Shown one piece after another: positions 30,990 to 42,496 of a stretch of 64,000 nt of DNA. The position numbers were made by a program, and so were the translations under genes. How positions within the stretch are numbered: the first letter of the stretch is position 1; each line of letters starts with the position of its first letter. The notes beneath the pieces are model-generated. The model searched no databases. It saw only the letters and a program-made list of their open reading frames with translations, and was not told where the DNA came from. Location of the stretch: contig JAFLTQ010000002.1 of the NCBI GenBank assembly GCA_022510385.1, positions 1 to 64,000 on the forward strand. The letters run 5' to 3'. The DNA is from Muribaculaceae bacterium (GTDB lineage Bacteria > Bacteroidota > Bacteroidia > Bacteroidales > Muribaculaceae).

Positions 30990-31019
30990 TAAAGAGAACC
31001 CCGGGCCATGACCCGGGGT
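30990..31019 (-). terminator. Terminator of the hexosamine-utilisation operon
   Basis: ACCCCGGG (30998-31005) pairs perfectly with CCCGGGGT (31012-31019). On the minus strand it is followed by TCTCTTTAT. It lies 38 bases beyond the fusion-protein gene, the last gene of the locus. Confidence 0.75.
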
Positions 31020-31056: not shown

Positions 31057-33039
31057 TCATTCACGGATGGGATGATACTCCACAAATGCTTCGATTGCCT
31101 CGTAGGAAGCCAAGCCCAAATCATGATAAAGTTTCGCTGTGGCCCGGTTTCTGTCTTCCGCACGTTGCCAGAAAAGCCTGTCGTCATTCCCTAAGAAGGG
31201 GGCATTCTCCATCTGGCTCTGATGCTTGAGGATTGAGTTTCTCTTCACGCGCAGCTCCTCAGGACTTATCGGCACGGCCATCTCTATATGGTCGATCTCC
31301 CATTCAGCCCAAGCTCCACGATACATCCAGATCTTGCAATCCTTCATCCAATCGTCATCCTTCATTTCGTCGATAGCCGCAAAAACAGCATCTGTACAAA
31401 CCTTGTGGGTGCCATGCGGATCCGCAAGATCACCGGCCACGAAAATCTCATGTGGTTTCACCGACTCGATAAGATCCCTCACAACCTTTATATCCTTTTC
31501 CGAGAGGTCTCCCTTCTTGATAGTGCCCGTTTCATAGAAAGGCATATTCAGGAAATGCACATTCTCTGGTTTCACTCCGATATAATTACATGCAATCCTG
31601 GCCTCTCCCTGCCTGATTTTCGTTTTCAGATATCTTACATCCTCTGCATCAGGATCGCCTATCTTCTTGTTCTTCAGGAAGTCGTGAATTTCCACGGATA
31701 TACTTGCGAATTCAGGGGTATTGAAACCAAATCTGGAAGCGATATTATCCATGAGTAGGAGATATCTCGTCATATCCTCATCCCCCACAGCGATATTTCC
31801 GGAAGTCTGGTAAGCCACATGCACGTCATGACCCTGGTCTACAAGCCTTTTTAGCGTTCCTCCCATCGAAATGACATCATCGTCGGGATGTGGAGAGAAA
31901 ACAATCACCCTCTTGGGATATGGGAGCGCACGCTCGGGTCGGAAAGTGTCGTCAGCGTTCGGTTTACCTCCGGGCCATCCGGTGATTGTGTGCTGCAGAT
32001 CGTTGAAAATCTTTATATTCACGTTGTAAGCCGAACCGAAAAGAGCTATGAGTTCCGCAAGCCCGTTGTCAATAAAATCCTTGTCGGTGAGTTTGAGAAT
32101 CGGCTTACCGGTTTTATGGCATAGCCATACTATAGCCCGACGGATTAATTTATCGTTCCATTCGCAGGAAGTGACCTTCCATGGATGAGAGATTCTCGTG
32201 AGATACTCGGCAGCGGGAAGATTCACTACAACCACGGCATTCGGATGCCCCTGGAGGAAAGATGCCGGAACATTTGCCGATGGCATGTCTTCCACGGTCT
32301 GTTGCACAATCTTCGACTTATGCTCTCCCCAGGCCACTGTCAGTATGTGCTTGGCCGACAATATATTGGAGATACCGATAGTGACTCCGGCAGAGGGAAC
32401 ATTCTCACATTGGTAATCCTCGGCTATACTTTTTCTCATTTCGGGATCAAGATGCACCACGCGGCATGTCTTGGTGGCCGGTGTTCCGGGACCGTTAAAG
32501 GCGAGGTTACCCAACTCTCCGATTTCACACAGGCAAAGGTCGATGGCACCTCCTGCACCGAAATATTGCTCATAGGCTTTGCAGCTATGATACATGTTCT
32601 CCGTGCCTTCAGAAAAACTAAATGTACGGATATGATCCTGTTTCACGTTCACATGATCGAGAAATACCTCCTTTAGTCGTGCAAGAGTAGAGGGCCCTCC
32701 ATCAGGTTGAGGAAGAAATTCGCAGATTGAATATACATATACATCCTTGAAATTCACCTTCTTTTCTTTATACATCCGGATAAGAGCTTCGTAAGTGCCG
32801 TCAAGACTTTTTGCAGCATCGAGTGCGAGGAAACATTTGTTTTTAGTCTCCAGGGTCCGGTTGACATATTTCACGACTGCATCGGCGAGATATTCGCTCC
32901 CCTCGGAGGCAGTCTCGAAAATTTTGGTATAGACTTTTTCACGTTGCGTAAGCGTCGCAAGTTCCACCTCGTCCTGAGGTGAGAAGTAACGCTTTGGAAT
33001 TTGGTCTAATTTAATCTTAGAAGTGAGATCCGTTTTCAT
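31057..33039 (-). CDS. NagB-like (inactive) / PIG-L deacetylase fusion protein
   Basis: A 660-residue fusion. Residues about 20-330 are homologous to glucosamine-6-phosphate deaminase, and about 375-600 are a PIG-L/LmbE zinc deacetylase domain with PHPDDD (383-388) and a later DPHGTH. Against the neighbouring true NagB, the four catalytic residues are changed: D72 to C106, D141 to L176, H143 to N178 and E148 to G183. The phosphate loop [10 protein letters not shown] is replaced by DAAKSLDGTY. So the NagB part is probably a sugar-phosphate-sensing or structural domain, and only the deacetylase half looks catalytic. Similar fusions are common in Bacteroidetes and usually annotated as NagB. Action on GlcNAc-6-phosphate is a hypothesis; no nagA is visible. 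Confidence 0.85.
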   Translation of the reverse strand: MKTDLTSKIKLDQIPKRYFSPQDEVELATLTQREKVYTKIFETASEGSEYLADAVVKYVNRTLETKNKCFLALDAAKSLDGTYEALIRMYKEKKVNFKDVYVYSICEFLPQPDGGPSTLARLKEVFLDHVNVKQDHIRTFSFSEGTENMYHSCKAYEQYFGAGGAIDLCLCEIGELGNLAFNGPGTPATKTCRVVHLDPEMRKSIAEDYQCENVPSAGVTIGISNILSAKHILTVAWGEHKSKIVQQTVEDMPSANVPASFLQGHPNAVVVVNLPAAEYLTRISHPWKVTSCEWNDKLIRRAIVWLCHKTGKPILKLTDKDFIDNGLAELIALFGSAYNVNIKIFNDLQHTITGWPGGKPNADDTFRPERALPYPKRVIVFSPHPDDDVISMGGTLKRLVDQGHDVHVAYQTSGNIAVGDEDMTRYLLLMDNIASRFGFNTPEFASISVEIHDFLKNKKIGDPDAEDVRYLKTKIRQGEARIACNYIGVKPENVHFLNMPFYETGTIKKGDLSEKDIKVVRDLIESVKPHEIFVAGDLADPHGTHKVCTDAVFAAIDEMKDDDWMKDCKIWMYRGAWAEWEIDHIEMAVPISPEELRVKRNSILKHQSQMENAPFLGNDDRLFWQRAEDRNRATAKLYHDLGLASYEAIEAFVEYHPIRE

Positions 33040-33080: not shown

Positions 33081-33893
33081 TTAGAGCAGAAGAGATTTGG
33101 CGTCAAGATTTGTGGATTCGATATCCTTATAATATCTGTATGTGCCCATCTTCAAGTCTTCGCATGCGGCATCATCGCAAACAATAATCGATTTTGGATG
33201 CATCTGCAGGGCTGAGATGGTCCATTGATGGGTCACTCCCCCTTCCACTCCATGCTGTAAGGCACGGCTCTTGTTGAAACCATTCACAATCAGCATGATG
33301 CTCTTGGCATCCATGATAGTTCCTACGCCTACTGTGAGAGCATAGCGAGGCACTTTGTTTACATCGTTGCCGAAGAAACGTGAGTTGGCAAACATTGTCT
33401 CTTTGGTGAGCGTTTTCATACGCGTGCGGGATGTCAGCGATGAGCCCGGTTCGTTAAAAGCTATATGTCCGTCGGTGCCGACTCCTCCGATGAAAAGATC
33501 GATACCTCCCACATCCTTTATTTTTTGCTCATAGTTGGCACACTCCTTTTCGGGATCTGCTGCATTCCCGTCGAGGATATTCACGTTTTTCTCATCAATA
33601 TCTATATGATTGAAAAAGTTGGTCCACATGAATGTGTGATAGCTCTGTTCATGGTTTTTAGGAATACCGCAATATTCATCCATGTTGAAAGTCACGACAT
33701 TCTTAAAGGAGACTTTCCCTTCCTTGTTTAACTTGATGAGGTTACGATACATTCCGAGAGGCGAGCTTCCGGTTGGCAGACCGAGCACAAATGGCCTTTC
33801 GGGAGTCGGGTTAGCTTTGTTGATACGCGCTGCCACATAATTCGCAGCCCATTCAGAAACGCTTTCGTAGTCGGGTTCGATAATTAGACGCAT
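33081..33893 (-). CDS. nagB: Glucosamine-6-phosphate deaminase
   Basis: Converts glucosamine-6-phosphate to fructose-6-phosphate and ammonia, bringing hexosamines into glycolysis. It has 270 residues. All catalytic residues stand at the classical numbers: D72 in FNMDEY, D141 and H143 in [11 protein letters not shown], and E148. The phosphate loop [10 protein letters not shown] is intact. It lies 41 bases before the fusion gene and 37 after the maturase gene in one minus-strand run. Confidence 0.97.
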
Positions 33894-33930: not shown

Positions 33931-35136
33931 CTAATTGCTAATTTCTGTAAGCATTATGTTGGCCGGTGGTCTTCCTGCGAGGAGTTCGTTCTTCATAAAC
34001 TCCATTGCCGGATCCACATGTTCGAAAAAGAGTTTGTAGCCGTCGCATAGATAATTGAGATTCCGGCCCTTTTCCGATGTCTTTACAAACCGGTTGCGGG
34101 GACATTCACCGTTGCAAGCCCATAAATAGCGACATTCTCTACACTCTTTAGGAAGCGACCCCCTTTTTGATTTGCCGAAAAGCATTTGGCTCCCACTTTG
34201 GGCCATCTGCCATAACTCCTTTTTATGGATGTTCCCAAGCTTATAACGAGGGAAAACGAAATGGTCGCAAGAATAGACGTCTCCGTTAAATTCCACTGCA
34301 AGAGCAGTGCCGCAATCGGGTGCCATCGTACATACCGGCGACTGCTCACCAATTTTGTTAGCAAGAGTTGCATCAAAAAGTTGCACATAATATGTGCCGA
34401 CATCTTTTTGCACCCATTCGTCAAAAATCTCGCACATAAAGCGGCCCCATTGAAGCGGTTTCACCGAGAAATCGGCAAGTTTTACGTTCTCTTCACTCTG
34501 ATTGGCAAGCATCCCGTCACGTTTCAAACGTTCCACAACCGGAGTAAACTGCAAGAACGGGGTTCCAAGACTCTTCAGAAAGTTATAGACTTCAAGAGGA
34601 TGTTCGGCATTAGCCGCATTTACGGTGGCAAGGATATTCCATTCCACCTTGTATCTGTTTAGAAGTTCAATTCCCTCCATAAGAGCCGGGAAAGATGACT
34701 CTCCGTTATGGCGAACGCGATAAATATCGTGCAGGTGTTGAGGCCCGTCTACCGAAACTCCGACAAGCCATCCGGCCTGTTGCAGGAACTCACACCATTC
34801 TTCGTTGATGAGGGTTCCGTTAGTCTGGATAGTATTGCACACCTCTCTTCCTCCTGCATATTTTTCCTCCAATTCCATCACTTTACGATAGAAATTCAGA
34901 GGCCTGATGAGCGCTTCACCCCCATGCCAGTTAAATATTAATTTCTCTGTGGGTTGGCTGGCACAATATTGACGTATGAAATTTTCGAGAGTTTCATCTC
35001 CCATCAGGTTGGCTTCCTCGTTCTTATAGTATTTCCCTTTCTCAAGATAATAACAATATTTACAACGCAAGTTGCAGGCCGAGCCTACAGGCTTGGCCAT
35101 CACTGCAAAGGGAGATCCGAACGGGAGTTGAAACAT
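33931..35136 (-). CDS. Anaerobic sulfatase-maturating enzyme (radical SAM, anSME)
   Basis: A cytoplasmic radical-SAM enzyme that turns the active-site Ser or Cys of sulfatases into formylglycine before export. It has 401 residues. The SAM cluster is C21-x3-C25-x2-C28 (CNLRCKYCYY). Further cysteines for two auxiliary clusters appear as CTMAPDCG, YSCDHFVFP and CRECRYLWACNGECPR. It lies three bases after the ROK gene. Both sulfatases in this window have serine-type motifs and depend on such an enzyme. Confidence 0.95.
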   Translation of the reverse strand: MFQLPFGSPFAVMAKPVGSACNLRCKYCYYLEKGKYYKNEEANLMGDETLENFIRQYCASQPTEKLIFNWHGGEALIRPLNFYRKVMELEEKYAGGREVCNTIQTNGTLINEEWCEFLQQAGWLVGVSVDGPQHLHDIYRVRHNGESSFPALMEGIELLNRYKVEWNILATVNAANAEHPLEVYNFLKSLGTPFLQFTPVVERLKRDGMLANQSEENVKLADFSVKPLQWGRFMCEIFDEWVQKDVGTYYVQLFDATLANKIGEQSPVCTMAPDCGTALAVEFNGDVYSCDHFVFPRYKLGNIHKKELWQMAQSGSQMLFGKSKRGSLPKECRECRYLWACNGECPRNRFVKTSEKGRNLNYLCDGYKLFFEHVDPAMEFMKNELLAGRPPANIMLTEISN

Positions 35137-35139
35137 AAC

Positions 35140-36093
35140 TTACCAGGCGAGTGCAGAGGCACCGAGCACGGCGCCGTCATCTTCATTTAATGAGGATACT
35201 AATATTTCAGGTTTTTCTTTATAAATAAAGAGTAAATTTTCATCGAACGACCTTTTCAACGGATTCATCAGAAGGTCGCCGCTTCTCATAAGACCACCGA
35301 ACAGGATGAAAGCTTCAGGACTCGAGAATGCAGTGAAGTCGGCTAAAGCGGCTCCGAGCATATCTCCTGTAAAGTCGAAAACCTCTTTTGCAAGTTCATC
35401 TCCTTCCATGGCAGCATCATAGACATCTTTAGATGTAATAGTTTCCGGATCAAGCTTTCTCAGCAAGCTCGGGCGCGAATCGCGTTGCAGGAATTCACGG
35501 GCTGTGCGAACCACTCCCGTGCTACTGCAATAGGTTTCGAGACAACCTTTTCTTCCACATCCGCATTTTCTTCCATTTCTATCCACAACCACATGTCCGA
35601 GCTCTCCGGCAAGACCGTCATGGCCGTAGACAAGCTGTCCGTTTGACACAACTCCGGATCCGACACCTGTGCCGAGAGTTATCATCATGAAATCTTTCAT
35701 ACCTTTGGCAGCTCCATATACCATCTCACCCATTGTGGCGGCATTCGCATCGTTGGTGACAGTTACCGGCAGACCTCCGAATTTCTCGCTGACGAGACTT
35801 GCTATCGGGAGATTTTCGCCCCAGTTGAGGTTGGCGGCATTCACGATTTCTCCCGTATGATAGTTCGCACCTGGAGCTCCGATTCCGATTCCTGCTATTC
35901 TCCCCTCTGCATTGTTTTCCTTGATGAGGCTCGAGAGGGCGACATACAGCCGGTCGAGGTATTCATTGAAGTCGGAATAACCTTTGGTCTTTATAGAACC
36001 CTTGGCAATGACTTTACCCGTTCTGTCTACAATACCGAAAACGGTGTTTGTGCCGCCGATATCAATTCCTATGGCATATGGTTTGCTGTTCAT
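35140..36093 (-). CDS. ROK-family sugar kinase
   Basis: A 317-residue ROK kinase. It shows the ATP loop IGIDIGGTNT, the catalytic Asp in VTNDANAA, GELGHVVV and the zinc motif CGCGRKGCLE. Such enzymes phosphorylate glucose, GlcNAc or ManNAc. In this cluster, with a hexosaminidase and NagB, GlcNAc or glucose are the likely substrates, but sequence cannot decide. It is tightly coupled to the maturase gene (3-base gap) and follows the GH2 gene by 56 bases. Confidence 0.9.
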   Translation of the reverse strand: MNSKPYAIGIDIGGTNTVFGIVDRTGKVIAKGSIKTKGYSDFNEYLDRLYVALSSLIKENNAEGRIAGIGIGAPGANYHTGEIVNAANLNWGENLPIASLVSEKFGGLPVTVTNDANAATMGEMVYGAAKGMKDFMMITLGTGVGSGVVSNGQLVYGHDGLAGELGHVVVDRNGRKCGCGRKGCLETYCSSTGVVRTAREFLQRDSRPSLLRKLDPETITSKDVYDAAMEGDELAKEVFDFTGDMLGAALADFTAFSSPEAFILFGGLMRSGDLLMNPLKRSFDENLLFIYKEKPEILVSSLNEDDGAVLGASALAW

Positions 36094-36149: not shown

Positions 36150-38564
36150 TTATAGGGTCAGCGATCCTTTCTTAAGACCCGGAGAGGTCGCCTTGAGAGT
36201 AATTTTGCCCGGGCCTGTACGTTCCACGATCACTGAGCAAAGCCCGTTGAATGCCGGCAATTCTTTTGAGTAGAAGGGTATATGGCTGGTGGGGTCGCCC
36301 GCATCTGTTGCCACGATTTTACCCGGACCCGAGATCGAGAAATTCAACATGTTTTGTGCTGTCGGGACCATTCTACCCTCTTTATCTGCAACTTCCAAAG
36401 TCACGTATGTCAGTTTGTCGCCCGAATAATCGGTATAAAGCTTCAATCTGTCGGCTTTCCCCACAGTCTCCACTTTATCTCTTGCCCATTCCTTACCATC
36501 CTTGTAAGCCACGACCTCCACTACTCCCGGTTGATAAACTATATCATCCCATCTGAGCCTATATTCGAGATCACCTTTCTTTTTCATGCCCTTTGACTCT
36601 CCATTTACGAAAAGTTCTGCAGAATCGCCTGAAGTATAGACATGTATAGGAGTTATCTCCCCTTCACGACCCTCCCAGTTCCAATGAGGAAGGATATGGG
36701 CCATCGGGAGCTCCGGATTCCATCTCGACTGATACAGGTAATATCTGTCTTTCGGGAAACCGGCAAGGTCAATGATTCCGAAATAAGAGCTTCTTGCCGG
36801 AGGCGGAGTCTTTGCCTGCTCCTTGAGGGCAGCCTCAGCCTTAGCCTTCTCCTCCTGGCTTGTAAAATTAGTAAGGATCGACCAGTCTACATTATAGGGG
36901 GTCGGTTCTCCGAGATAATCGATTCCCGTCCATACAAATTCTCCGCAGAGATAAGGAGCCTGATCTTCATATGCCCATTCATAATCAGGCTTGGAAGCCC
37001 AGCCCGGTGCATAGAGATCGTAAGAGCTTACCTGGAACGGTGCACCATCCACCCATCCTTTCCCCTTATCCTCTTCCACCGGGAATTGATAGTAGCCACG
37101 GGTTGAAACGCATGAAGCTGTCTCCGCACCTATCACTGCCTGGTTGGGATAACGTTTGTGGAAATCCTCGTAGGCATGAGGCTTATAATTGAACCCGTAG
37201 ACATCATTAACAAGGTGGTATGCGGTCTTATATGCCGGGAGTTTATTATTTCCGGAAGTGACCGGACGTGTCGGATCTGTCTGCTTTGTGATATCATAAA
37301 GCATCATGGGCACCCACCAGGTAGTAGGCTCGAGTTGCTCCTCACATTCATTACCGATACTCCATAACACTACGGAAGGATGGTTGCGGTCACGCCTGAT
37401 AAAGGATGTCAGATCCTTTTCCGCCCAATCGTTGAAGAGACTGACATATCCGTTTGGTTTCTTATTAAGCGGGATAGTCCAGCTATCTGTAAATTCATCC
37501 TCAACAAGAAAACCCATAGTGTCACACAGATCTAAAAATTCAGGAGCCGGAGGATTATGGGAAGTGCGGATTGCATTGCATCCCATATCTTTGAGCAATT
37601 GAAGTCTTCTCACCCATGCATCTCTATTCCATACAGCTCCGAGTGCCCCTGCGTCATGATGCAGACAGACTCCTTTCAGGAAGCTCTTCTCTCCGTTAAG
37701 GAAGAAACCCTCAGGGGTGAATTCGATAGTGCGGATTCCGAAAGGCGTCTCATAGACAGCCTCTTTACCGTCGGGATTCACCACAGTGGTTTTGGCCATA
37801 TACATTTTCGGGTGTTCGGGGCTCCAAAGCTCTATATTATTGAGATTGAACTTCTGATTTATTACCGCATTGTTGGAGATAGAGTCGGTAGTTGAGACTT
37901 GTGTCATGACTTTCCCGTTGTCGAGAATTTCAGTTTTCACTGTACCCACATATGGTTTAAGACTGCTTTCCAATGTGATTTCAAGGTTCACTTCAGCCTT
38001 ACCGTCGCCGAGATAAGTGGGCACGAGATAGGTGCCCCACTGCCCTACTGACACCGGAGCCTCTTTGGTGAGCCATACATCTCTATATACACCTCCACCG
38101 GGGTACCAGCGAGAAGAATTTTCTTTGTTATCGAGCTTTATTTCTACTTCATTGGCTCCTACCTGGATATATGGAGTCAGATCGGCACGAAAAGAGGCAT
38201 ATCCGTAGGGCCATTCCGTCACCTTCTGACCGTTGAGGAAAACCTGAGCTCCGCTCATTGCACCGTCAATGTCCAGAAGAAAGCGTGTTGCCGCCTCCAT
38301 CTCTTCCTCGGTTACATTGAACTGTTTGCTATAAGAAGCTTTCCCCCACCATGGGAGTTTACCCGTTTCGCCGGGATAGATTTGCTCGAAAGGAGATTCC
38401 ACACCCCAATCATGAGGGAGGTCAAGCACTCGCACATTTCCATCCTTTTCATAGGTCCAGCCTTTGTTGAAATTTTGGCGACCGGTGGAATTTGCCGATG
38501 CTAATAGAAAAACAGAGAGAAAAAAAAGTGAAAAAAGATATCTCATATAAAGTGGGATTTTCAA
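36150..38564 (-). CDS. GH2 beta-galactosidase, exported
   Basis: An 804-residue glycoside hydrolase family 2 enzyme. A signal peptide (residues about 7-25, YLFSLFFLSVFLLASA) is followed by the sugar-binding jelly roll (30-190), an Ig-like domain (195-290) and the TIM barrel (295-600). The acid/base is the Glu of WSIGNE near 404. The nucleophile is probably the Glu of IGAETAS near 480, by analogy with BgaA-type galactosidases. The later GEFVWTGIDYLGEP is a family hallmark. C-terminal Ig-like domains end the protein. It probably removes terminal galactose from N-acetyllactosamine. It starts 11 bases after the GH20 gene. Confidence 0.92.
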   Translation of the reverse strand: MKIPLYMRYLFSLFFLSVFLLASANSTGRQNFNKGWTYEKDGNVRVLDLPHDWGVESPFEQIYPGETGKLPWWGKASYSKQFNVTEEEMEAATRFLLDIDGAMSGAQVFLNGQKVTEWPYGYASFRADLTPYIQVGANEVEIKLDNKENSSRWYPGGGVYRDVWLTKEAPVSVGQWGTYLVPTYLGDGKAEVNLEITLESSLKPYVGTVKTEILDNGKVMTQVSTTDSISNNAVINQKFNLNNIELWSPEHPKMYMAKTTVVNPDGKEAVYETPFGIRTIEFTPEGFFLNGEKSFLKGVCLHHDAGALGAVWNRDAWVRRLQLLKDMGCNAIRTSHNPPAPEFLDLCDTMGFLVEDEFTDSWTIPLNKKPNGYVSLFNDWAEKDLTSFIRRDRNHPSVVLWSIGNECEEQLEPTTWWVPMMLYDITKQTDPTRPVTSGNNKLPAYKTAYHLVNDVYGFNYKPHAYEDFHKRYPNQAVIGAETASCVSTRGYYQFPVEEDKGKGWVDGAPFQVSSYDLYAPGWASKPDYEWAYEDQAPYLCGEFVWTGIDYLGEPTPYNVDWSILTNFTSQEEKAKAEAALKEQAKTPPPARSSYFGIIDLAGFPKDRYYLYQSRWNPELPMAHILPHWNWEGREGEITPIHVYTSGDSAELFVNGESKGMKKKGDLEYRLRWDDIVYQPGVVEVVAYKDGKEWARDKVETVGKADRLKLYTDYSGDKLTYVTLEVADKEGRMVPTAQNMLNFSISGPGKIVATDAGDPTSHIPFYSKELPAFNGLCSVIVERTGPGKITLKATSPGLKKGSLTL

Positions 38565-38575
38565 AAATAAGAGTT

Positions 38576-40867
38576 TTATCTCAGAGTCAGTTCATCGAAA
38601 TAGAGCCATGTCGCAGCTCCTCCACGTGCCTCTCCGGCCGGTATTTTTCCCGGATTCTTGGCCACCACCTTAAGATAGCGGGCATTTGCATCCAAGGGTC
38701 CGAAATCTATTTCATGGAGTGTCGGGAGTTTCACGAAAACAAGTTCTTCCGGGGTTGTCACCCTCGACAGGAACTCATAATTCTGACCGTCGACAGAGCC
38801 GTAAAGTTCAGCATTTTCAGGCATGGCCACACAAATCTGAGCAGCCCCGATTGTTCCGAGCGTGCAATTGTTGAAAGGTATTATCTCACCGAGATCCACC
38901 ACAAATTCAGCATCACGGTTGTGCCATCCCGCCCATTCAAAGTCAGAAATTCTTTGGCTCCCTCTGACTCCGTTGGTAAGGACACCTTGCAATTCATTAT
39001 TGCAGTTGGCTGAAGTGACGTTCTTTCCGGTGGCATTATTAAATGCAACATTCAAGGCAAGCGGGCGTCCCATTTGCTTTCCATCCTTATAAGTTGCTGC
39101 CACAATAGAGGATGAGCTGTCAAGTGAAAGCGGGCCCGAATAGGTAACGGGATTCCCCTCATTCCCTGAAACAGTATAGATTATATCTACATCCGGACGG
39201 ATTGACTCCAGATTTACGGTTACGCCCTCTCCGGTTGGAGCTGCGGCGTGCTGTATGTTATACATAGAATTTGCATGGATGATGCCTCTCTCCTGAAGTT
39301 CGGGGAGATAGGAGTCGAGAGCCTCCAGGAATCCGGCCCAGTTTTCACTTCCCTCGGGACGCCATGCAGCATCCGCCACAGCGATAAGACGCGGGAAGAG
39401 CAGATACTCCACATCTTCGGGAGAATTGCAGAATTCAGTCCATATAGAACCCTGAATACCTAAAAGATTTTCCTTGAGTTCGGGTGTCCAGTCATCCTTG
39501 ACGGGTTCAAATTCATAGACATCCTTTAGAGTGTTATTGCCGAAATAGGTGTAAGGTTCAAACCATTGCGGCCCCTGATATCTGAGGAGATAAAGAATCT
39601 TTGAGGGAGAAAGAATGAATTTTCTACCGCTGCTTTTTGAGTCTTTCACCGCCACATTGCCGGAGCCTTGCCAGCCGATAATAATCATATCCTCTTTAGG
39701 ATTGCCGTAGGTGACTTCATCCCATCCTATGGCTTTACGGCCTTTTGTGCGCACATATGAATTTATCTGATCCATAAAATAACCCTGAAGCCCTTCATAT
39801 CCGTCGAGTCCGAGGAGTTCTATGCGCTCCGTGCACAACGGGCACTCCTTCCACACTCGTTTATCAGCCTCATCCCCTCCGAGATGGATATATTCTGACG
39901 GAAACACATCCATCACTTCATCGAGAACATTTTTATAGAACTCATAAACTTTATCATTGCCTCCGCACATTATAATCGAGGCATCCTCGCCACCGATTCC
40001 GGGGAAAACACCTACGAATTTATCTACCACGGGACAAGCCAGTTCCGGATAGGAGGCAATGGCTGCAGCAGCATGCGCAGGCATTTCGATTTCAGGCACT
40101 ACATTGACATATCTGTCGGCAGCGTAAGCCACTATCTCACGGAGATCATCCTGAGTATAGAACCCTCCCACAGGAGTCGGTTCGTCGGCACTTCGAGCAT
40201 TCTCGCGTCCCGGGAACACCTCAGGACGGTCAACCCTCCAGGCTCCGACTTCTGTCAGAAGAGGATACTGTTTTATTTCCATTCTCCAACCGTTATCGTC
40301 GGTGAGGTGCATATGCAGTGTGTTGAATTTCAGAGCCGAGGCAAGGTCTACAAGTTTTAAAACCTCTTCCTTGGGTATGAAATATCTGGCTGCATCAAGC
40401 ATTAAAGCCCTATATGCAAATCTGGGAGAGTCGGTGATTGTGGCACAAGGAATCTCAATCCTGTTTGAATTTCCGTTATTTGATAAGAGGTAAGAGATTT
40501 GGTAGAGAGATTGCAACCCGTAATAGAAACCCTTTTCGGTTCCGGCTGTCAGAGTCACTGCTGACGGGGTGATTTCGAGTTGATAATCTTCCGATGCGAT
40601 CCCTTTATCCTCTTTGAGATAGAGATCGATCCGGGCTGCCGACTTGGTGTCGGTGATTACATAATTATGTTTCAGCACATTCAACAGTTTCTCCGTTGTT
40701 TTCTTTGGAAGTGTTGTTTTGACATTCCAACAGTCGGGCACGATGAAAATTCCTTCAGCCGGTGTGTATTGAGCCGGCTGAGGAATTAATGGCTGTGCTG
40801 CATACACAGCCGTATATATAAAAAGAGGGGAGAGAAAGAGTGCAATTAAAGATAATAAGCGTTTCAA
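38576..40867 (-). CDS. GH20 beta-N-acetylhexosaminidase, exported
   Basis: A 763-residue GH20 enzyme releasing terminal GlcNAc or GalNAc by substrate-assisted catalysis. A signal peptide (1-23) leads to a GH20b alpha/beta domain (25-145) and the TIM barrel (150-490). The catalytic Asp-Glu pair is in HLGGDEADK near 330. A chitobiase-type C-terminal domain (530-600) and an F5/8 type C-like carbohydrate-binding domain (620-763, ending ATWLYFDELTLR) follow. It sits between the sulfatase and GH2 genes, with gaps of 27 and 11 bases, so all three share a transcript. Confidence 0.95.
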   Translation of the reverse strand: MKRLLSLIALFLSPLFIYTAVYAAQPLIPQPAQYTPAEGIFIVPDCWNVKTTLPKKTTEKLLNVLKHNYVITDTKSAARIDLYLKEDKGIASEDYQLEITPSAVTLTAGTEKGFYYGLQSLYQISYLLSNNGNSNRIEIPCATITDSPRFAYRALMLDAARYFIPKEEVLKLVDLASALKFNTLHMHLTDDNGWRMEIKQYPLLTEVGAWRVDRPEVFPGRENARSADEPTPVGGFYTQDDLREIVAYAADRYVNVVPEIEMPAHAAAAIASYPELACPVVDKFVGVFPGIGGEDASIIMCGGNDKVYEFYKNVLDEVMDVFPSEYIHLGGDEADKRVWKECPLCTERIELLGLDGYEGLQGYFMDQINSYVRTKGRKAIGWDEVTYGNPKEDMIIIGWQGSGNVAVKDSKSSGRKFILSPSKILYLLRYQGPQWFEPYTYFGNNTLKDVYEFEPVKDDWTPELKENLLGIQGSIWTEFCNSPEDVEYLLFPRLIAVADAAWRPEGSENWAGFLEALDSYLPELQERGIIHANSMYNIQHAAAPTGEGVTVNLESIRPDVDIIYTVSGNEGNPVTYSGPLSLDSSSSIVAATYKDGKQMGRPLALNVAFNNATGKNVTSANCNNELQGVLTNGVRGSQRISDFEWAGWHNRDAEFVVDLGEIIPFNNCTLGTIGAAQICVAMPENAELYGSVDGQNYEFLSRVTTPEELVFVKLPTLHEIDFGPLDANARYLKVVAKNPGKIPAGEARGGAATWLYFDELTLR

Positions 40868-40894: not shown

Positions 40895-42496
40895 TTATAT
40901 ACTTCTTTGTTCTTGGTTTAGATGTCTGATGGGGTCATCATATTTCTCCTGTTGTTGGCGAAGCTTTTCCATCATTCTGCCGGTGATTTCCTCCATACCG
41001 GGTTTCCCATAGAGATTGTTCATTTCATGGGGATCTTCCTGCAGGTCGTATAGCTCCCAGGCATCGATGTCATTGTAGAAATGAATGAGTTTATACCTGT
41101 CGTCGCGAACTCCGTAATGGCGTTTCACCATATGTTCGGCAGGATATTCATAAAAATGATAATAAATTGCGTCACGCCAGTCTTCAGGATCTTCACCTTT
41201 AAGGATTGACAAGAAAGATTCGCCCTGAATATCTTCAGGAACTGGCACTCCTGCCAATTCGAGGAAAGTGGGGGCATAGTCTATGTTCTGCACCATCTGT
41301 GTTATGTCACCACGACGATTGAATCCTTCGGGCAGATGCATGATCAGAGGAGTGTTCAGCGATTCCTCATACATGAAACGCTTGTCAAACCATCCATGCT
41401 CACCCATATAGAATCCCTGGTCGGATGTATAGACTACAAGAGTATTCTTAAGCAAGTCTTTTTCTTCGAGGTAATCGAGCACACGCCCTACATTTTCGTC
41501 AAGACTCTTCACAGTCTTGAGATAATCCCTCATATATCTCTGGAACTTCCATTCAGCGAGATCCTTCCCTTGCAGGTTTTGTGCATAGAAATCCTCGATG
41601 ATAGGATCGTAGAAAGCATCCCATTTAGCCTTTTGGGCAGAATCCATACGATTATAGTAGCTTTCATAACGGGCCTTAAGATCGCTGTATTTGTCAGGGC
41701 GGTTCATCTTAAGGTCGTAGATTGGATCCATATGGTCGGCCACTCTCATCTCAGCAGTTTTTGCTGCCTCGCGACCCTCATAGTTATCGAAATAATTCTC
41801 AGGGAGAGGGAAAGTCTTGTCTTCATAGAGAGCAAGGTGGCATGTGTCAGCCATCCAGTTTCGATGGATTGCCTTGTGATGTATAAGGATACAGAAAGGT
41901 TTTTCCTTATCTCTTTCATTCTCGAGCCAATTGAGACTCATGTCAGTGATAAGATTGGTGAGATACCCCTGTTTTTGGATAGTGTCGCCCGATTCAATGA
42001 TGAAGTCAGGATTATAATAGTCTCCTTGCCCGGGCACTATCTCCCATCGGTCGAAACCTTGAGGAAGACTTTCAAGGTGCCACTTCCCGAAGAGTGCTGT
42101 CTGATAACCGGCCTCCTGAAGATATTTTGGGAAAGTAGGCTGACTTGCATCGAAAACGCAGGTGGTATTATCCGTGAATCCGTTTTTATGGCTATGTTTC
42201 CCGGTGAGCATACAGGCTCTTGAGGGGCCGCTAAGAGAATTTGCCACATAACTGTTGACAAATTTCACGCCATCGTTAGCTATACGGTCGAGATTCGGGG
42301 TTTCCGCATAGCGGGTGTCGTAACAACTCATCATCTGTGCCGTATGGTCATCGGTCATTATATAGACGATGTTATAGGGACCCTCCTGCTCGCTCGCTCC
42401 CGCTTTCTTGCAGGAGGAGGTTCCCGACATTGCCATCACAGCGACGCCCGGAAGCAGAATAGATCCTTTTAATATCAGATTATCTGTAGTTTTCAT
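40895..42496 (-). CDS. Sulfatase lipoprotein, N-acetylglucosamine-6-sulfatase-like
   Basis: A 533-residue S1 sulfatase. A lipobox (SGTSSC, Cys29) suggests a lipid-anchored protein. The metal pair is in YIMTDDHTAQ, and the formylglycine site is S89-G-P-S-R93, serine type. The second half has TSDQGFYMGEHGW, which completes the metal site. The opening (MMSCYDTRYAETPNLDRIA) looks, from memory, like the GlcNAc-6-O-sulfatases of S1_11 such as BT4656. If so, it strips 6-sulfate before GH20 acts. It follows susD by 50 bases with a hairpin between them. Confidence 0.9.
   Translation of the reverse strand: MKTTDNLILKGSILLPGVAVMAMSGTSSCKKAGASEQEGPYNIVYIMTDDHTAQMMSCYDTRYAETPNLDRIANDGVKFVNSYVANSLSGPSRACMLTGKHSHKNGFTDNTTCVFDASQPTFPKYLQEAGYQTALFGKWHLESLPQGFDRWEIVPGQGDYYNPDFIIESGDTIQKQGYLTNLITDMSLNWLENERDKEKPFCILIHHKAIHRNWMADTCHLALYEDKTFPLPENYFDNYEGREAAKTAEMRVADHMDPIYDLKMNRPDKYSDLKARYESYYNRMDSAQKAKWDAFYDPIIEDFYAQNLQGKDLAEWKFQRYMRDYLKTVKSLDENVGRVLDYLEEKDLLKNTLVVYTSDQGFYMGEHGWFDKRFMYEESLNTPLIMHLPEGFNRRGDITQMVQNIDYAPTFLELAGVPVPEDIQGESFLSILKGEDPEDWRDAIYYHFYEYPAEHMVKRHYGVRDDRYKLIHFYNDIDAWELYDLQEDPHEMNNLYGKPGMEEITGRMMEKLRQQQEKYDDPIRHLNQEQRSI

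Follow-up and report, generated by a model that had tools for sequence, protein, structure and literature searches.

A NagB-like domain stripped of its catalytic residues and fused to a putative PIG-L deacetylase beside nagB in a Muribaculaceae genome

The 64,000-nucleotide stretch of Muribaculaceae bacterium DNA that we analysed (hereafter the window) carries a gene in which a NagB-like half is fused to a PIG-L deacetylase half, immediately downstream of a canonical nagB. Judged by their residues, the NagB half looks like a pseudoenzyme and the PIG-L half like a complete catalytic domain. We consider it probable, though well short of certain, that the protein derives from a bifunctional GlcNAc-6-phosphate deacetylase/deaminase and has been reduced to a deacetylase that occupies the place of NagA; a Rosetta-stone fusion of two consecutive steps, later reduced in this way, is the most economical reading. 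The loss of residues, the asymmetric conservation of the halves, the gene content and the gene order are read directly from the genomes, and from them we infer that the protein is an active enzyme, what its substrate is and in which direction its history ran. In mucin, chitin and cell walls GlcNAc is a major sugar, and should the PIG-L half prove to be the deacetylase that is missing, the annotation and the pathway models of gut Bacteroidales would change. The fusion family itself is already catalogued; we did not find the clade with dead deaminase halves, or the part that it probably plays in place of NagA, described in the literature that we searched.

The fusion gene and its neighbourhood

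The fusion ORF (31057-33039, minus strand) starts with ATG, has no internal stops and encodes 660 amino acids. It is the last gene of a same-strand stretch bounded by terminator-like hairpins at 42537-42510 and 31019-30998, in the order sulfatase, GH20, GH2, ROK kinase, sulfatase maturase, nagB and fusion, and same-strand genes continue beyond both hairpins. The features, all on the minus strand, are:

40895..42496, minus: sulfatase with an SGSH C-terminal domain (profile match)
38576..40867, minus: GH20 beta-hexosaminidase (profile match)
36150..38564, minus: GH2 beta-galactosidase, GalB-like (898.5 bits against a cut-off of 900)
35140..36093, minus: ROK-family sugar kinase, candidate GlcNAc kinase (241.3 bits, under the ROK glucokinase cut-off of 260.35)
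33931..35136, minus: anaerobic sulfatase-maturating radical SAM enzyme (NF010308, 574 bits, cut-off 484)
33081..33893, minus: canonical stand-alone nagB, 41 bp upstream of the fusion (TIGR00502, 406.3 bits, cut-off 236.9)
31057..33039, minus: fusion of the NF002557 family (N-terminal segment, dead NagB-like half, linker and PIG-L deacetylase half)
32923..33039, minus: N-terminal segment of the fusion, residues 1-39 (from the comparison of conservation in dead and intact sets)
32200..32922, minus: NagB-like half, residues 40-280 (about), catalytically degraded (C106, L176, N178, G183; AAKS loop at 75-78)
31930..32199, minus: linker, residues 281-370, strongly conserved, surviving deletion of the NagB half
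31060..31929, minus: PIG-L/LmbE-type deacetylase half, residues 371-660 (H384, D386, D387 and H542 intact)
30998..31019, minus: terminator-like hairpin just past the fusion stop codon (pattern match only)

Neither terminator-like patterns (13, against 12.7 in shuffles) nor promoter-like patterns (22, against a mean of 22.4) are enriched in the window and, since they are no commoner than in shuffles, the hairpin 3′ of the fusion is proposed from its position.

Pfam recognises two families in the fusion and no others, Glucosamine_iso (44-264, 43.2 bits, cut-off 27) and PIG-L (PF02585; 379-555, 73.8 bits, gathering cut-off 28.2). The protein passes the NCBIfam model NF002557 (PRK02122), whose curated name is 'glucosamine-6-phosphate deaminase-like protein', with 878.9 bits against a cut-off of 384 over model positions 4-652 of 653, and fails the NagB model TIGR00502 (124.4-126.7 bits against 236.9); of the 48 such halves listed for the Bacteroidales order sample, its NagB half scores lowest, at 126.7 bits. 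The ORF, the Pfam matches and the TIGR00502 scores bear out the original prediction that a NagB-like half fused to a PIG-L deacetylase lies beside a true nagB. The NagA model TIGR00221 has no match at the fusion locus, and the fusion stays below the cut-offs for the bacillithiol deacetylases (BshB1/TIGR04001, 32.8 against 182.5 bits; BshB2/TIGR04000, 31.8 against 195.25). It is itself the sole PIG-L match of the window genome (E 0.001). Its closest named relative, at 85% identity, lies on JAFLTO010000003.1 ('Muribaculaceae bacterium isolate HAN055'). Our search, which left most subscription journals outside, found no literature on the activity of an NF002557 fusion.

Active-site residues of the two halves

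Catalysis by NagB is defined by D72, H143 and E148 (E. coli numbering), together with the phosphate loop. In the fusion C106, L176, N178 and G183 align with D72, D141, H143 and E148, respectively, and the TGGT phosphate loop of the E. coli enzyme is replaced by AAKS, which does not match the pattern TGx[ST]. The L176/D141 position is not diagnostic, because the 135 fully intact fusions have T (90), N (26) or S (19) there and a solved deaminase, 2bkv, has N; the test for residue loss was for this reason cut from four positions to D72, H143 and E148. What had been put forward as four catalytic replacements thus stands for these three residues and the phosphate loop, and D141 does not discriminate. 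The sequence relation to NagB (TIGR00502; 1cd5 and 2bkv, the E. coli and B. subtilis enzymes) runs along residues 42-280 of the fusion, but the fusion is without D72, H143, E148 and the phosphate loop and scores below the TIGR00502 cut-off.

The deacetylase half has kept both of the motifs ascribed to it, PHPDD (H384, D386, D387) and DPHGTH (H542, H545). Assigned by motif, H384, D387 and H542 would be the His-Asp-His zinc ligands and D386 the general base, the pattern given for PIG-L proteins in the LmbE family review (PMC4101496).

Intact, dead and NagB-less members of the family

A scan of 259 loci, from whole-genome searches and from named genomes, gave 255 fusion ORFs; the four loci not extracted were G030 (twice), G386 (once) and the incomplete contig L136, and some matched genomes, such as G068, G094, G191 and G259, lie outside the fusion set. 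The 255 are loci, and they include the window copy (L017), paralogs from the same genome and a few species represented twice (e.g. L016 and L066). Both sites are kept in 135 of them, a dead NagB half is joined to an intact PIG-L half in 103, nine are partial, eight have an altered PIG-L site, and none has lost both sites. D72, H143 and E148 are retained together in 143 of the 255, so the catalytic positions are not always lost in homologs. The dead halves are those without D72 and H143; E148 is still there in 87 of the 103, and every row has Arg at the position of E. coli R158.

In a tree of 62 hand-picked rows, obtained by a quick search with the linker and the PIG-L half only, every sampled row with the double loss of D72 and H143 falls within one 30-row Bacteroidales clade, which also takes in two NagB-less ORFs and L095 (D kept, H lost), and the nearest row outside it is an intact fusion (L008). 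To judge from the sampled tree, the joint loss is a derived state of this one clade. The D72/H143/E148 pattern is Y/N/E near the Bacteroides group, and many Muribaculaceae loci have S, C, A or G at position 72. The sub-clade of the window has lost E148 and the loop glycine as well; L085 lacks E148 too, as does a Bacteroidales group with L012, L160 and L168 among its members. Separate partial losses in the NagB half occur outside the clade (G227/G267/G275, G413, G453/G482 and G022/G044).

The NagB half is wholly lost in the ORFs known from G030 and G386, where linker and PIG-L half are left. G030, a member of the window's genus whose completeness is given as 100 and which is without nagA, has in succession a nagB with all four catalytic residues, a 400-amino-acid linker and PIG-L protein and a ROK kinase; counting stop codons, the first two genes overlap by 4 bp and the last two by 1 bp. 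The NagB-less ORFs L184:4453-5652 and L183:2944-4137 exceed the NF002557 cut-off of 384 with 612.5 and 620.2 bits and would be given its deaminase-like name with no NagB domain left, and on this point the claim that such genes are mis-annotated as deaminases proved correct. The two-part architecture of the NF002557 family is common to the window fusion, which matches the model over its full length, but a single model with a deaminase-like name spans intact, dead and NagB-less members, and the window fusion no longer has a deaminase site. That name is wrong for the dead and the NagB-less members if the missing deacetylase is indeed the PIG-L half. The series from intact to dead to deleted, within one family and beside a second gene encoding the same function, makes a clear case of a pseudoenzyme domain.

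The eight fusions with an altered PIG-L site (L014, L175, L201, L237, L262, L281, L282 and L283, with PRPADD in G043 and PHPADD in four) all keep the NagB site. Six of them are in genomes with another intact fusion or with nagA; for the fusions of G458 and G206, in which a zinc histidine is changed, no such back-up was found.

Conservation and constraint on the two halves

The two halves have been conserved very differently in the dead fusions. Mean identity between sampled pairs is 47% for their NagB half, 85% for the linker and 75% for the PIG-L half, compared with 60, 56 and 58%, respectively, among intact fusions. Of the positions conserved at 95% or more in the intact set, the dead set keeps 19 out of 62 in the NagB half, but all 18 in the linker and 67 out of 71 in the PIG-L half. 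Only positions 122, 127 and 260 of the dead NagB half are newly conserved, that is, at least 90% identical for a different residue. With its pocket residues drifting and no more than these three gained, the suggestion that the NagB half senses the substrate is not supported.

Measured against L066, dN is 0.165 for the NagB half of the window fusion, 0.073 for the PIG-L half and 0.054 for the true nagB; dN/dS is not given as a number because synonymous differences from the nearest relatives of the window have reached saturation. Since dN is highest in the NagB half, yet still low beside these saturated sites, and no stop codon interrupts it, the half reads as being under relaxed but not absent constraint. 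Residues 1-39 (32923-33039, minus strand) are more conserved in the dead set while the domain that follows them has drifted: 11 of the 39 are conserved at 95% or more, against one in the intact set, in which starts and alignment are uncertain.

Stand-alone nagB and the loss of the deaminase site

A stand-alone nagB nearly always accompanies a degraded NagB half. The order sample comprises 218 Bacteroidales genomes, 49 of which exceed the NF002557 cut-off (one being the NagB-less G386), and in it a canonical stand-alone nagB was found in 25 of the 26 genomes whose fusion NagB half is below the TIGR00502 cut-off and in three of the 22 above it. In a table of 144 rows, in which each genome is represented by its lowest-numbered locus and stand-alone nagB is entered from the genome searches, such a nagB occurs with 32 of 33 degraded fusions versus 14 of 111 intact ones (Fisher p 6.5e-20), so that 14 intact fusions coexist with a stand-alone nagB. 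No stand-alone nagB was found by the genome searches in G368 and G559, which have dead halves. Counted on the tree, the association comes down to about five changes and four independent pairs, with 3.4 on average in the same direction and none in the opposite one (median p 0.25), too few for the independent-pairs test to reach significance.

Another 50 genomes whose fusions are degraded were picked because no neighbouring nagB had been seen (two of the loci, L076 and L088, do have one), and 49 of them also have a stand-alone nagB. This check and the one for nagA described below each cover 50 of the 80 named loci, in genomes whose completeness is not given, and in both sets L095 is partial, with D at position 72, and all others are dead. 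Close linkage is less general, with nagB within 1.5 kb of the fusion in 22 of the 80 named loci and a ROK homologue near it, in the flanking DNA available, in four of 80; flanks of 1.5 kb or more on both sides are available for 58 of them.

The deacetylase step and nagA

The original prediction of a missing nagA agrees with our search, in which the best TIGR00221 match in the 98%-complete window genome reaches 17.5 bits against a cut-off of 225.65. No nagA was found in any of 37 genomes of the window's genus, several of which are incomplete. Deacetylase module and nagB (seen through its NF002557 match) occur together in five of these. The remaining 32 yielded neither; one of them, G001, has a PIG-L-like match of 38 positions. 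These gene-content comparisons suggest that the fusion supplies a step of amino-sugar breakdown in a genome in which no nagA was found.

Across the phylum the picture is mixed. Among 100 fusion genomes of the phylum sample, nagA is above the cut-off in 18 and not in 82, six of which have NagA-like matches under the cut-off (177.7-223.6 bits). It is present in 13 of 23 genomes with nagB but no fusion versus the 18 of 100 with a fusion (Fisher p 0.0003, not corrected for relatedness); the corresponding contrast in the order sample is not significant (6 of 19 versus 6 of 49, p 0.08). The deficit in the phylum sample appears only when the comparison is restricted to nagB holders, and no tendency of fusion and nagA to exclude each other was found over the phylum as a whole, both being present in 18 genomes where about 14 are expected from the margins. 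Among 50 genomes in which the fusion is degraded, 17 also have a nagA above the cut-off. The idea that the fusion fills the gap left by nagA is thus tenable for the window genome, but it does not extend to a general replacement.

At five of the eight loci from the Bacteroides group (L138-L142 out of L138-L145) the fusion adjoins one or two NagA-like genes, an adjacency that the coordinates from the genome searches also show for L138, L140 and L141, and both of those at L139 (3326-4504 and 4517-5680, minus strand) align along their length with solved NagA. Because the PIG-L site is intact beside these genes, the PIG-L half is not simply redundant with NagA in this group, and since it is kept where NagA exists, its substrate may differ or be broader there. 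For the NagA-like genes beside the fusion, among them the one at L138 (4792-5952, plus strand), GlcNAc-6-P and GalNAc-6-P are candidate substrates.

NagA has the reaction and the pathway position that we propose for the PIG-L half, but it belongs to the amidohydrolase superfamily (PMC6016474), whereas the fusion deacetylase is of the PIG-L/LmbE type. Non-orthologous replacements are reported in mucin-sugar pathways (PMC5583593), and in B. theta GlcNAc is phosphorylated and then deacetylated (PMC11300592). Like the nagB and fusion of the window, the 'NagB' gene Fjoh_4557 of Flavobacterium johnsoniae belongs to a Bacteroidota glycan-utilisation locus, in that case for chitin; its deletion was without effect, three further nagB-like genes are present, its expression failed and it was treated as a deaminase, but that strain has a NagA, Fjoh_3974 (PMC5127042). 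The literature covered also includes PMC9007349, PMC10017367, PMC11992087, PMC8656163 and PMC5790795.

Alternative readings and proposed history

By sequence, the closest solved structures to the PIG-L half are diacetylchitobiose deacetylases (8bgn, 3wl4 and 3we7; PIG-L family), with which it has in common the HPDD zinc motif and some 50 residues around it; similarity to LmbE-type proteins is weaker. The half could then deacetylate an unphosphorylated sugar (GlcNAc, a chitobiose-like disaccharide or GalNAc), as the archaeal enzyme does, and leave the phosphorylation of glucosamine to the ROK kinase, which belongs to the gene stretch of the window and lies directly beside the module in G030. 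This would also explain the coexistence with NagA in the Bacteroides group. We nevertheless regard it as rather unlikely, since the PIG-L half was joined to a GlcN-6-P deaminase, and this indicates a phosphorylated intermediate. Similarity to the solved enzymes is moreover confined to those 50 or so residues: these enzymes have no NagB half, and the linker and the remainder of the PIG-L half aligned to no PDB sequence. We give still less weight to a deacetylase acting outside GlcNAc catabolism, for example on a cell-wall or nucleotide-sugar precursor, with nagB next to it by coincidence. PIG-L proteins do have several known substrates (PMC4101496) and the neighbours of the fusion vary, as the counts for nagB and ROK homologues attest, but a fusion to NagB occurs across the phylum, co-occurrence with nagB is perfect in the genus sample, and the three genes of G030 form a single run.

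That the window protein is still a deaminase, acting through other residues of its NagB half, seems very improbable. The retention of E148 in most dead halves (the window's not among them) and of the Arg aligned with R158 could be cited for it, but D72 and H143 are gone with much of the phosphate loop, the residues replacing them vary, and only three positions of the half are newly conserved; a true nagB adjoins, and the G030 and G386 ORFs have dispensed with the half entirely.

In the reading that we favour, a deacetylase left over from a bifunctional enzyme, the zinc-dependent PIG-L half of the ancestor would have deacetylated GlcNAc-6-phosphate, the NagA step, and its NagB half would have turned the GlcN-6-phosphate so formed into fructose-6-phosphate by deamination. 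The NagB half would then have lost its catalytic residues in a Bacteroidales clade in which a stand-alone nagB was nearly always at hand, and would persist in the lineage of the window as a pseudoenzyme domain on a working deacetylase. The pathway encoded in the window would start with the release of GlcNAc by the GH20, GH2 and sulfatase enzymes, after which the ROK kinase would form GlcNAc-6-P, the fusion GlcN-6-P and NagB fructose-6-P. The asymmetric decay, the co-occurrence with nagB, the G030 run, the scarcity of nagA and the single PIG-L match count for this reading; nagA alongside degraded fusions, the weaker NagA-like matches, the order-sample contrast in nagA that lacks significance, the few changes on the tree, the intact fusions that coexist with a stand-alone nagB, the dead halves of G368 and G559, the altered PIG-L sites of G458 and G206, the varied neighbours and the PDB match of about 50 residues count against it.

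More speculatively, and with little confidence, we raise the possibility that an unrecognised PIG-L-type GlcNAc-6-P deacetylase, born fused to the enzyme downstream of it, replaces or accompanies NagA in the Bacteroidota, and that the dead deaminase half is kept as a non-catalytic partner which might, for instance, dock on the stand-alone NagB oligomer through its NagB fold and the newly conserved N-terminal segment.

A second, longer protein resembling NagB and PIG-L (L023:556-2874, minus strand; 772 amino acids) matches NF002557 only in pieces and has a NagB half of the QIDEFYP and GPDGHIAFN type together with the deacetylase motif PHHDD. ORFs of about 770-810 amino acids with similar two-piece matches occur in other Bacteroidales genomes.
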